A stretch of 30,019 bases of DNA from a virus: positions 1 through 30,019 of IMG/VR virus record IMGVR_UViG_3300013126_000161. The stretch is one strand, 5' to 3'. The first letter of the stretch is position 1. Every line of letters starts with the position of its first letter. Shown here one piece after another: positions 23,361-26,380 of this stretch. A program made the translations under genes and the position numbers. The notes beneath the pieces were generated by a model, which ran no database searches, was not told where the DNA came from, and worked only from the letters and a program-made list of their open reading frames with translations.

Positions 23361-24734
23361 ATGCAGTGGGAATTATCAGAAGATACTAAGGTTTTAATTT
23401 TAAGATCTGCTACATCTATTGAAATAGACCAAACTAATATGTACTTTACGAGGGAAGCGGCAAATGCGAAATGGGATCCTCGTGTAAAAAAGGGATATTG
23501 GGATGGCAAAATATCATACTTTAAATCAAACAAATACTTACCATCAGGACTTTGGTATGAATTAATTGAAATGGGAAAGAAATTTGATTTTCCTATTAAG
23601 ATTTCTGGTATTGAAAGAAAGTTTGATTTCGAAGTGGATAAAGAGGAGTTTCAACAATGGGTTGCGACAAAATGGTCAGGCGCAAAAAAAGTACCAAGAC
23701 AATACCAAATAGATGCAGCATTTAACATTATTAAGTATAAATCATCTCTTTCGGAATTAGCAACATCTGCAGGTAAAACATTAATAACTTATATGGTTAT
23801 TGCATATTTGTTAGAACAAAAAAAATCTAAGAAGATATTAATGATTGTTCCTTCTGTTGATTTAGTTGTACAATCATCAGATGACTTCTATCAATATAAT
23901 GAAGAGTCTTTAAAACTTAAATTGGATATACAACAAATTTATGCAGGATCTATTATTAGGTCAGGTTGTCCTATCGTCATAGGTACATTTCAATCATTAG
24001 TTAAGAAAAATGAAGACTATTTTGATATGTTTGATACTGTTATATGTGACGAATCACACAGATGTTCGGCCAGTTCCGTTAAGGCTGTGCTATCAAAATG
24101 TCTAAATGCTGATAGGAAATTTGGTTTAACTGGTACTATTCCTAAACCAAATACCCTTGATTATTTGACTATTATGAGTCAAATGGGTCCAGTTATTACT
24201 TCAATAAAGGCAGATTATTTGCAGAATGAAGGATATATTTCAAAATGCGAAGTAATTTCTTTAGAAATGTCATATGCCGATAATGATGTAAGGGAAGCAT
24301 TTAGTACATTATTTAAACGTTCGTCTGAAGATAGAAAAAAGCTTTTAACATTAGAACAAAATTTTGCAAATTCCGATAATATGCGACTCGAGTTTATTAC
24401 AGATGTTATTTGTAAGTCTGTAAAAAACGCACTTGTTCTGTTTTATCATATAGATTATGGTAATAAGATAATGAACTTATTAAAGAAAAAATCAAATAAG
24501 AAAATTGTTTACATTGATGGTTCTGTTAATAAAAACATAAGAGAATACAATAAAGATGTAATGGAGGACGATAATTATACTGATTATTTAGAATTCTGTG
24601 CAGATGGTGTTAAGTATGAAATACCATACGAGAATAAAGTTAAATTGATGGATGGGAGAATGGTTTCGGCCAAGGACTTACAAGAGGGTGATGATATAGA
24701 TATTGATTATTTAAAGAAAAATATTATTAATTAA
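23361..24734 (+). CDS. uvsW: UvsW-like helicase, N-terminal part, with a foreign C-terminal tail
   Basis: The 457-aa product carries the UvsW N-terminal domain (KWDPRVKKGYWDGKISYF) and SF2 helicase motifs: Walker A ATSAGKT (134-140), DESH (230-233), LTGT (256-259), and the start of RecA domain 2 (ALVLFYHIDYGNKIMNLL, then IDGSVNKNIREYNKDVMEDD, up to about residue 405). The frame then leaves UvsW: residues 406-457 have no counterpart in UvsW and resemble part of a Hint module (KVKLMDGRMVSAKDLQEGDD). Motifs V and VI are found about 1.5 kb downstream (26050-26380). UvsW unwinds branched DNA and R-loops in T4. As encoded here this fragment lacks the arginine-finger motif VI and should be inactive alone unless the halves are rejoined or associate. 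Confidence 0.88.
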   Translation: MQWELSEDTKVLILRSATSIEIDQTNMYFTREAANAKWDPRVKKGYWDGKISYFKSNKYLPSGLWYELIEMGKKFDFPIKISGIERKFDFEVDKEEFQQWVATKWSGAKKVPRQYQIDAAFNIIKYKSSLSELATSAGKTLITYMVIAYLLEQKKSKKILMIVPSVDLVVQSSDDFYQYNEESLKLKLDIQQIYAGSIIRSGCPIVIGTFQSLVKKNEDYFDMFDTVICDESHRCSASSVKAVLSKCLNADRKFGLTGTIPKPNTLDYLTIMSQMGPVITSIKADYLQNEGYISKCEVISLEMSYADNDVREAFSTLFKRSSEDRKKLLTLEQNFANSDNMRLEFITDVICKSVKNALVLFYHIDYGNKIMNLLKKKSNKKIVYIDGSVNKNIREYNKDVMEDDNYTDYLEFCADGVKYEIPYENKVKLMDGRMVSAKDLQEGDDIDIDYLKKNIIN

Positions 24735-24765
24735 CTGGGGTCTCTATTAATAAAATGTAAAATTT

Positions 24766-24780
24766 TTAAAGATATATAAA
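24766..24780 (+). repeat. 15-nt AT-rich element upstream of the HNH ORF
   Basis: TTAAAGATATATAAA lies 12 nt before the ATG at 24793 and occurs identically at 26377-26391, 10 nt before the ATG at 26402. The TATATAAA core recalls the T4-type late -10 element (TATAAATA), so a phage promoter is possible; a translation-leader role is the alternative. Confidence 0.4.
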
Positions 24781-24792
24781 ATAAATAAAATC

Positions 24793-25350
24793 ATGAAAGA
24801 TTTTATTTTAAATTCTTTATTATCAAAACATGTTATTTGTGATGATTACAATTCACTTGATTTATATTTAGATTTATGTACTAATTACAATGAAGTAATT
24901 TCTGATGATGATTATTGTGAGATTCATCATATTTTACCAAGAGTATTTTTTCCTGAATATACAAATGAATCTTGGAATAAAGTTGTATTAAAATATGAAG
25001 ATCATAAGAAGGCACATTCTCTTCTATTTGACTCATTTAATATAAGAACGTACCAAAAACCTTTGTTATTCTTTAGGTATAAAAAATCAAAGAAACAAAT
25101 ATCAAATGCAGCTAGGCGAGGCTGGGTTAATTTAAGAAATGATAAGTCTAAATATGATTTATTTGTAAGTAAACGTTCTGCTCATATGAAAACGTTAACA
25201 TCGGATGAACAACATAGACGTGCAATGTGCAGATGGGATAATTTAACTGAAGATGAAAAAATAAATCTTCGTAATGAGATAGGTATAGCATCAAGATTAT
25301 TTTTATCTAATCCTATTATTCGTAAAAAATGTCAGACAGTCAACAAATAA
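24793..25350 (+). CDS. HNH homing endonuclease, catalytic part
   Basis: The protein has 185 aa. The HNH motif is EIHHILPR (His45/His46), then W-N62-K-V-V-L, then EDH71KKAH75, as in phage homing endonucleases of the HNH/NUMOD group. After about residue 105 it becomes a chain of basic helical repeats (LTSDEQHRRAMCRWDNL, LTEDEKINLRNEIG) typical of NUMOD3-like DNA-binding helices. It stops at 25350, shortly after an A6 run (25324-25329). The downstream ORF continues the same kind of repeat in the -1 frame, so this is probably the front half of one enzyme of about 410 aa. It would cut uninterrupted uvsW alleles if homing is active. Confidence 0.8.
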   Translation: MKDFILNSLLSKHVICDDYNSLDLYLDLCTNYNEVISDDDYCEIHHILPRVFFPEYTNESWNKVVLKYEDHKKAHSLLFDSFNIRTYQKPLLFFRYKKSKKQISNAARRGWVNLRNDKSKYDLFVSKRSAHMKTLTSDEQHRRAMCRWDNLTEDEKINLRNEIGIASRLFLSNPIIRKKCQTVNK

Positions 25351-26012
25351 GATTTAGCGATGTTAAAAATAGGGAAAAAGTATCAATGTGCAATAAGTTA
25401 AGATATGAAAAAATGACACCTGATGAGAGAAAATCTTTTTCAGATAAAATGAGCGTTGTTAATAAAGACCCAAACAAACGTAAATCTGCTGGTGCAGCAA
25501 TTGCAAAAAAATGGGAAGACCCTATTTTTTTGGAGAAAATGAAAAACCGAAAAAATAAAAAATCTACATACGAAGCAATATCACCAAATGGCGACTATCA
25601 TATAGTTGATGGTTTAGATGAATTGTGTAATAAATTTTTACTTAATCTAACACTTGTTAATAAATATAAAGATACCGGTGAACCTATCAAATGTGATACG
25701 AAAAGAAAGGGCGTATCGGATGAATTGTTAAATAGCGTTGGTTGGATTGTTAATACGTTAACCAATCGACATATTATACATAAAACAACTAAACGTAATC
25801 CTACATATAATTTAATATCACCTATTGGTGAAAAGTTTGAATGTATTGGTCTTAAAAACTTATGTTTGACATTTAACTTTAATGGGTATTTTGTTAATAA
25901 ATTTAAAAATACTGGTTCACCAATATCCTGCAATAAATACAAAGACACAACAACGATGCCTGATAATATAAAGAATATGTTAGGTTGGTTAATATACGAA
26001 ATAAAAAATTAA
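25329..26012 (+). CDS. HNH homing endonuclease, DNA-binding part (frame-shifted continuation)
   Basis: The 227-aa frame begins with more NUMOD3-like repeats (MTPDERKSFSDKM, DPNKRKSAGAAIAKKWEDP) that continue those of the preceding ORF. Two copies of an approximately 75-residue domain follow: 'YEAISPNGDYHIVDGLDELC ... VNKYKDTGEPI ... VGWIV' and 'YNLISPIGEKFECIGLKNLC ... VNKFKNTGSPI ... LGWLI', the target-recognition modules seen at the C-termini of phage HNH enzymes. The nominal ATG at 25329 uses the last A of the A6 run; the frame has a stop at 25323. A -1 slip on AAA AAA would join both frames in register. Translation as a separate protein from 25329 is the alternative. Confidence 0.7.
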   Translation: MSDSQQIRFSDVKNREKVSMCNKLRYEKMTPDERKSFSDKMSVVNKDPNKRKSAGAAIAKKWEDPIFLEKMKNRKNKKSTYEAISPNGDYHIVDGLDELCNKFLLNLTLVNKYKDTGEPIKCDTKRKGVSDELLNSVGWIVNTLTNRHIIHKTTKRNPTYNLISPIGEKFECIGLKNLCLTFNFNGYFVNKFKNTGSPISCNKYKDTTTMPDNIKNMLGWLIYEIKN

Positions 26013-26016
26013 TATA

Positions 26017-26085
26017 ATGGCTAAAATTTCAAATTTAAAAAATGTAAAAAAGTACGAGGCGACTATTATGGTCGCCTCGTACTGA
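26017..26085 (+). CDS. 22-codon ORF carrying the uvsW motif V strand
   Basis: ATG 26017 opens a frame ending KKYEATIMVASY then TGA (26083-26085). The last part (ATIMVASY) is what UvsW needs directly before GTMSTG (T4 UvsW has IIIVASYG at this point). It is therefore a piece of uvsW in another frame from the 26099 ORF, not an independent gene by content. Its codons gag, gcg, gtc, gcc, tcg, tac are GC-rich and unlike the A/T-ending codons of the rest of the window. Whether translation starts at 26017 is unknown; the segment may instead be read by splicing or recoding. Confidence 0.5.
   Translation: MAKISNLKNVKKYEATIMVASY
26051..26083 (+). other. 13-bp GC-rich perfect hairpin at the uvsW junction
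   Basis: agtacgaggcgac (26051-26063) and gtcgcctcgtact (26071-26083) are exact reverse complements around a 7-nt loop (tattatg). Eight of 13 pairs are G-C, the strongest hairpin seen in this AT-rich window. The right arm encodes Val-Ala-Ser-Tyr of helicase motif V and ends at the T of the in-frame TGA. No T-tract follows, so it is not a standard terminator. Confidence 0.85.
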
Positions 26086-26098
26086 GGTTGACGGAACG

Positions 26099-26380
26099 AT
26101 GTCAACGGGAGTGTCTATAAATAACATACATAATTTATATTTAATAGAATCATTTAAATCAGATGTTATTATTAGGCAATCTATAGGTAGAGGGTTAAGA
26201 ATGCATAAACTTAAAGATAAACTTTGGATTTTTGATTTTGTCGATGATTTAAGAATTAAAGGATTTAAGAATTATTTGTACAAACATGGAGAAGCGCGTA
26301 GGGTAATATATGATGAACAAAAATTTCCTTACAATATAAAGAAAGTTGATTTAACAAAAATTTACAAGCATAGAACTTAA
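26099..26380 (+). CDS. uvsW: UvsW-like helicase, C-terminal part (motifs V-VI)
   Basis: The 93-aa frame carries the end of motif V and motif VI: (GT)MSTGVSINNIHNLYLIES, then IIRQSIGRGLRMHKLKDKLW with the conserved QxxGRxxR, then DFVDDLR and NYLYKHGEARRVIYDEQKFP, which matches the UvsW C-terminus. The frame is open upstream to 26048, but the residues directly before GTM in this frame (RTEVD) are not those expected; the expected VASY lies 10 nt upstream in another frame. If translated alone, ATG 26099 is the first Met. It would lack ATP-binding motifs and could work only in trans with, or joined to, the N-terminal part. Confidence 0.85.
   Translation: MSTGVSINNIHNLYLIESFKSDVIIRQSIGRGLRMHKLKDKLWIFDFVDDLRIKGFKNYLYKHGEARRVIYDEQKFPYNIKKVDLTKIYKHRT

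Follow-up and report, generated by a model that had tools for sequence, protein, structure and literature searches.

In phage T4 the order 39/mobA/60.1/60 places a broken HNH gene within a split DNA enzyme, and the downstream gene has, close to its start, an insert led by a stop codon. About half of the ribosomes bypass this insert in gene 60 (PMC3014915, PMC5009743, PMC11194080). The HNH gene of the T4 39/60 locus is also broken into two open reading frames (ORFs). In Aeromonas phage Aeh1, the order nrdA-a/mobE/nrdA-b describes an enzyme which is functional although it is split (PMC2988022). Here we analyse a uvsW helicase gene in the IMG/VR virus record IMGVR_UViG_3300013126_000161. The window is this whole stretch of DNA, a single metagenomic viral contig of 30,019 bases which is a fragment of a genome. 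As read from the sequence, uvsW is split by an HNH insertion just before the strand of motif V, and the locus can be described as an HNH-split uvsW carrying a second, stop-led insert of 10 nucleotides (nt) that lies within hairpins. By analogy, it would work most like the T4 mobA/gene 60 cassette. The reading we favour, tentatively, is that UvsW is made as two polypeptides, the second of them through a ribosome bypass of 10 nt.

The ORF starting at 23361 on the plus strand matches ResIII and UvsW_N in Pfam, phrog_16 (DNA helicase) and other helicases in PHROG, and also the solved structure of T4 UvsW, 2oca (E=8e-41). A profile scan of viral contigs resulted in 23 loci, and in all of the 15 closest (L006-L020) uvsW is uninterrupted and both break points of the window are read through. 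As these relatives read continuously across them, chance is ruled out for both break points. Among the phages of the named collection the closest relative is LR756500 (462 kb); its uvsW is intact, reads ..LMEVGDKRLLVASFGTFSTGINI.. and is 61% identical to the 3' part of the split gene. The product of the 5' part, UvsW-a, has 51-64% identity to intact UvsW of L006-L013.

The initial annotation had placed motifs I-IV upstream and motifs V-VI downstream of about 1.5 kb carrying an HNH endonuclease, and this layout was confirmed by Pfam, PHROG and the alignment. Its coordinates needed revision, as the 5' part ends with ACT at 24581 rather than at 24575 and the 3' part is not one frame; alignment to the 15 intact loci fixes the junction at 24581/26065. 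It had further described a single interruption; the position before motif V is correct for the large insert (insert 1), but the second one of 10 nt (insert 2) was overlooked. No second, intact copy of uvsW, a finding which it had considered fatal to the split, occurs within the 30-kb record, itself a fragment.

Aligned to the intact relatives, the native reading of the window is ..VMEDDNYT-IMVASY-GTMSTGVSI.., and the order in the DNA is ..AATTATACT (to 24581), 1,483 nt, ATTATGGTCGCCTCGTAC (26065-26082), TGAGGTTGAC (26083-26092) and GGAACGATGTCAACGGG.. (from 26093). Insert 1 sits between Thr and Ile, directly ahead of the motif V strand. ACT is present at both of its edges, which means that the boundary is uncertain by 3 nt. 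IMVASY (26065-26082) aligns with the motif V strand of every relative, and the ATG of the UvsW-b start ORF at 26017 begins four bases past the end of the endonuclease gene. Eighteen nt of recovered coding sequence precede insert 2, which opens with an in-frame TGA (UGA) and shifts the frame; GTMSTGVSI.. picks up at 26093 in a different frame from IMVASY. All features are collected in Table 1.

Table 1. Features of the split uvsW locus (coordinates are positions in the window)
Feature	Position	Strand	Description and basis
uvsW 5' part (UvsW-a)	23361..24581	+	motifs I-IV; ends ..DVMEDDNYT; Pfam, phrog_16
Insert 1, HNH homing cassette, 1,483 nt	24582..26064	+	delimited by alignment with the intact uvsW genes of the 15 relatives
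Foreign 50-aa C-terminal tail of UvsW-a	24582..24734	+	DYLEFCADGVKYEIPYENKVKLMDGRMVSAKDLQEGDDIDIDYLKKNIIN; stop at 24734; not present in any intact UvsW
HNH endonuclease, catalytic N-terminal part	24793..25350	+	phrog_12434 HNH endonuclease, E=2.5e-18
Remainder of HNH gene, post-frameshift	25329..26012	+	two 79-aa repeats
UvsW-b start ORF	26017..26085	+	own ATG 26017; MAKISNLKNVKKYEAT then IMVASY; TGA stop 26083-26085
Hairpin 1, 15 bp	26051..26083	+	5' arm is the 3' end of insert 1; 3' arm is the MVASY coding sequence
Insert 2, 10 nt	26083..26092	+	TGAGGTTGAC; candidate ribosome-bypass gap
Hairpin 2, 7 bp	26087..26106	+	covers candidate landing site and AUG 26099
uvsW 3' part	26093..26380	+	motifs V-VI (GTMSTGVSI..QSIGRGLR..); phrog_9690 DNA helicase, E=1.1e-23

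Excision of insert 1 alone cannot restore UvsW, because insert 2 brings an in-frame stop as well as a change of frame. We therefore find it most improbable that insert 1 is excised by a self-splicing intron, or some other RNA element, that has escaped recognition. The HNH domain does resemble that of I-LimII-type enzymes (~36% identity), which belong to group I introns in phage DNA polymerase genes, and the 3' edge of the insert is highly structured. However, the enzyme of the window is free-standing, the endonuclease and tail ORFs occupy almost all of insert 1, no intron model matched at E<=10, and the stop-led 10 nt would stay after excision. The statement in the initial annotation that no group I or group II core can be recognised held in Rfam searches at gathering thresholds and at E<=10, where the few sub-threshold hits belong to unrelated families; nor did these searches find any other Rfam family. 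A new splicing element, which had been put forward as one of three outcomes, is not supported, since insert 2 survives the removal of insert 1 and neither an intron nor an active intein was found.

The two hairpins around insert 2 together form the most stable 60-nt segment of the record (-34 kcal/mol; mean -5.8, standard deviation 3.3), and the longest perfect stem of the record lies in hairpin 1. A synonymous-folding test was carried out in which the protein and the 10 nt were held fixed and codons were drawn from the phage's own usage. None of 3,000 synonymous versions folded as well as the native hairpin region, and the codons used for ATIMVASYGTMSTGVS are far from phage usage (p<5e-5). 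The z-score of the hairpins was -3.9, compared with a lowest value of -2.6 among 78 other coding segments and a range from -3.2 (L013) to +1.4 in the intact relatives, none of which has a comparable structure except for a weaker one in L013. By these statistics the hairpin region is rebuilt at the expense of normal codon use. The record being a single metagenomic contig, an assembly or amplification artefact at the palindrome may be considered, but it is very improbable: the insert has a genuine endonuclease and a coherent layout, and a misassembly would hardly yield codon recoding across both hairpins.

For a bypass, the candidate take-off codon is UAC at 26080-26082 and the candidate landing codon is GAC at 26090-26092, followed by GGA at 26093. 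As in gene 60, the gap is led by a stop directly after the take-off codon (UAC UGA.., 10 nt) and has stem-loops 5' and 3' of it. Some ribosomes at UAC-UGA would disengage, slide 10 nt and resume at GGA, and hairpin 1, whose loop is ~12 nt upstream of the take-off codon, may refold behind the moving ribosome and act like the 'motor' described for T4. The product would be exactly the native ..IMVASY-GTMSTGVSI.., with YEATIMVASYGTMSTGVSINNIHNLYLIESFK as the predicted joining peptide. Scored against the UvsW profile, the exact skip of 10 nt gave the best result (171.0 bits), compared with 162.5 bits for a +1 shift and 149.1 bits for a restart at AUG 26099. Other hops using codons for the same amino acid (e.g. 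GTC to GTT) were tried and gave poorer UvsW products. The +1 shift, at UAC-UGA-G, would likewise join the two frames, whose relation is +1, by inserting Glu-Val-Asp in motif V (predicted peptide YEATIMVASYEVDGTMSTG..). We regard it as improbable, as the re-pairing from UAC to ACU is poor, the score falls under that of the exact skip, and the aligned relatives are without any insertion at that point.

The HNH insertion may also have occurred without any bypass. Translation would then end at UGA 26083 and start anew at AUG 26099, or the gene would be dead; UvsW would be truncated, in three pieces or non-functional, and the locus decaying. The bypass is only slightly more likely than decay of the gene. 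AUG 26099 is in frame and 13 nt past the UGA, near enough for coupled re-initiation, and the products would be a 22-aa chain ending in YEATIMVASY plus MSTGVSINNIHNLYLIESFK. The mismatch of the take-off and landing codons is in line with either restart or decay, and decay is additionally suggested by the HNH gene, which is already frameshifted, and by a mild acceleration of uvsW. On the other side, AUG 26099 is half buried in hairpin 2, and the restart product would be without the motif V strand which all relatives retain. Furthermore, IMVASY is perfectly preserved beside insert 2, ~500 codons are without another stop or loss of a motif, and decay leaves unexplained why the codons were changed to build hairpins stronger than any others in the record.

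All UvsW motifs are kept, and identity to the same relatives is higher for UvsW (63%) than for the other genes of its neighbourhood (44-50%). Only 15 positions that are invariant in nine relatives are changed in it, a count that is not unusual among intact genes. These data fit a working split enzyme as well as early decay.

A number of observations weigh against a bypass. UAC and GAC are not cognate and agree in two of three positions; as the matched codons of gene 60 are thus missing, the locus is not filed here as a proven bypass. Translation across the split locus and its joined protein product are predicted from the sequence. In the synonymous-folding test, the T4 hop region itself reached a z-score of only -1.4; the folding signal of the window therefore indicates an unusual structure, not hopping, and is no hallmark of hops. 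By profile, the tail of UvsW-a and the N-terminal extension of UvsW-b are not recognisably related to those of gp39 and gp60. In the lineage of the window, uvsW has gathered ~1.7-fold the unique changes found in its sister L013 (chi-square values of 6.8 to 9.0 for three of the four outgroups and 3.5 for the other), an excess not seen in neighbour genes with distant outgroups, and some relaxation of selection on uvsW is possible. Finally, searches of viral contigs found no second phage with the same split-uvsW allele, and no close relatives of exon 1, the HNH gene, exon 2 or the tail when each was searched alone. One match to GTCGCCTCGTACTGAGG in another viral contig was rejected as chance, that contig having 64% GC. 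Concerning the codons, the title of a paper cited in PMC3014915 indicates that minimal pairing can suffice for resumption.

Six gene-60 loci were compared with the window: T4, PM2, S16, KARL-1, AB-Navy-v2 and Aes012. The gaps are 50, 51, 48, 43, 42 and 17 nt, respectively, that of Aes012 being annotated as predicted. In all six, the codons for take-off and landing specify one and the same amino acid, and the gap is stop-led in five. Common to these loci and the window are a conserved phage DNA enzyme split by an HNH gene that is often broken, a short and usually stop-led insert soon after the new downstream gene begins, a position at a Gly codon, and stem-loops. The window differs in that uvsW is not a topoisomerase gene, the insert is 10 nt instead of 17-51 nt, and the stop is UGA and not UAG. 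KKYE, to be compared with the KKYK of the stimulatory nascent peptide in T4, is found 8-11 residues ahead of the take-off codon, within a lysine-rich stretch; the N-terminus as such is not homologous to gp60 by profile, the N-tail of UvsW-b giving no significant match. The idea that the tail of UvsW-a is a piece of topoisomerase (gp39-like, from a 39/60 locus) was attractive by eye and failed by profile; the T4 segment likened to the tail also occurs in the unsplit topoisomerases of phages 65 and CC2.

Some observations on the gene-60 loci were made in passing. In S16, PM2, KARL-1 and AB-Navy-v2 (L046, L043, L042 and L050), gene 60 is annotated as truncated or as separate ORFs, and a take-off codon is followed by a gap of 42-51 nt and a landing codon for the same amino acid; apparently these are unannotated hops of the T4 type. 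At the hops of KARL-1 and Aes012, Asp codons stand in place of Gly. The motif CTATTATG (26062-26070), which spans the uvsW insertion point, is also found upstream of the hop in gene 60 of T4, PM2 and AB-Navy-v2, perhaps merely as both encode Ile-Met strands.

The HNH frame is broken at an A6 run (25324-25329). This may be due to degeneration, a sequencing slip or a programmed -1 frameshift, which are indistinguishable here, and HNH activity is doubtful because the ORF is frameshifted. The 79-aa repeats have their match in the C-terminal part of Aeh1 MobE, and S16 and AB-Navy-v2 have weaker relatives of the HNH endonuclease next to gene 60. The T4 hop reportedly protects against nicking by MobA, a finding attributed to Bonocora et al. 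2011. By analogy to mobA and gene 60, the 10 nt may persist by shielding the cassette's own allele from its endonuclease. A motif TAAAGATATATAA that looks like a T4-type late promoter occurs at 24767, ahead of the HNH ORF, and at 26378, ahead of the gene after uvsW.

On entry into uvsW, the HNH homing endonuclease gene left UvsW-a with its foreign 50-aa tail, and UvsW-b. A search for the tail in 20 related records found none. An AlphaFold2 model of the tail made without an alignment is a small beta module (pLDDT 72). In Foldseek searches of the PDB, intein halves were the commonest matches (Npu DnaE, VidaL, RecA; E 0.1-5), the model superposing on Npu DnaE with an rmsd of 2.2 A over 41 columns, and intein-bearing proteins were frequent among the matches in a library of viral models, at the same E-values. 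The model resembles half of an intein (HINT) domain and is compatible with a possible half-intein turned docking tail. Such an origin, a 'fractured gene' with an intein N-fragment on UvsW-a and a C-fragment on UvsW-b that have lost their catalytic ends and kept the inner halves for docking, concerns where the tails came from and can be combined with the bypass. We consider it rather unlikely. It is favoured by the fold matches and by a custom profile of intein inner halves, on which the tail ranks 7 of 10,001 against shuffles (6 of 10,000 shuffles did better); uvsW is moreover fractured with intein fragments in S16, PM2 and Prevotella Lak-B4 phages. Against it, each fold match is weak when taken singly, the tail scores 8.4 bits on the custom profile compared with 21-80 bits for true members, and this profile does not single the tail out among the ORFs of the window. 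Pfam and NCBIfam intein profiles miss the tail, although they recover the inner halves of the known split inteins that served as controls. The tail has no block A, NYT being joined to DYLEF, no Cys1, and PYEN in place of TxxH. No His-Asn is present at the junction of MAKISNLKNVKKYEAT and IMVASY, and the N-tail of UvsW-b matched intein C-fragments without significance. The fractured gene with a degenerate split intein proposed in the initial annotation is thus retained as regards the predicted fold only, as sequence profiles are negative and the catalytic ends missing.

Among the three proposed outcomes, the helicase working as two polypeptides is the best fit and has close precedents. Like the window, Aeh1 nrdA has an HNH insertion and extra tails on both halves; unlike it, the gene is a different one, no second insertion is known, and the tails are dissimilar. 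The extra tails are reportedly essential for the split Aeh1 NrdA (Crona et al. 2011). The tail of UvsW-a may help the two chains to dock. In the phages S16 (Salmonella), PM2 (Proteus) and Lak-B4 (Prevotella) (L051, L052 and L053), uvsW consists of two ORFs with an endonuclease-like ORF between them. There the break is at the DExH box (motif II) and the intein fragments keep Cys1 and His-Asn, whereas in the window the break is before motif V and without an active intein. Side observations were made in LR756500: the gene for the topoisomerase large subunit (L036/L040) is interrupted by ~1.8 kb with an intein-like C-terminus at its end (EDESFILSNGIISHNS), and a gene upstream of uvsW (L002:104-1297) contains an intein whose middle part is HNH-like.

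Studies of efficient ribosome bypassing in phages have dealt almost exclusively with T4 gene 60, and this one locus is all that connects the process to a homing endonuclease. That the window holds a second natural phage gene with a ribosome hop (10-nt gap, non-cognate landing, homing cassette) and, jointly with this, a half-intein docking tail, is doubtful. If the bypass is true, a distant phage lineage would have one in another gene, of another length and with other codons, and 'endonuclease plus small stop-led insert' would be a recurrent mobile design. The requirements of a hop could then also be studied in a minimal system. Should the product not be made, the locus would clearly exemplify how a core helicase decays once invaded.

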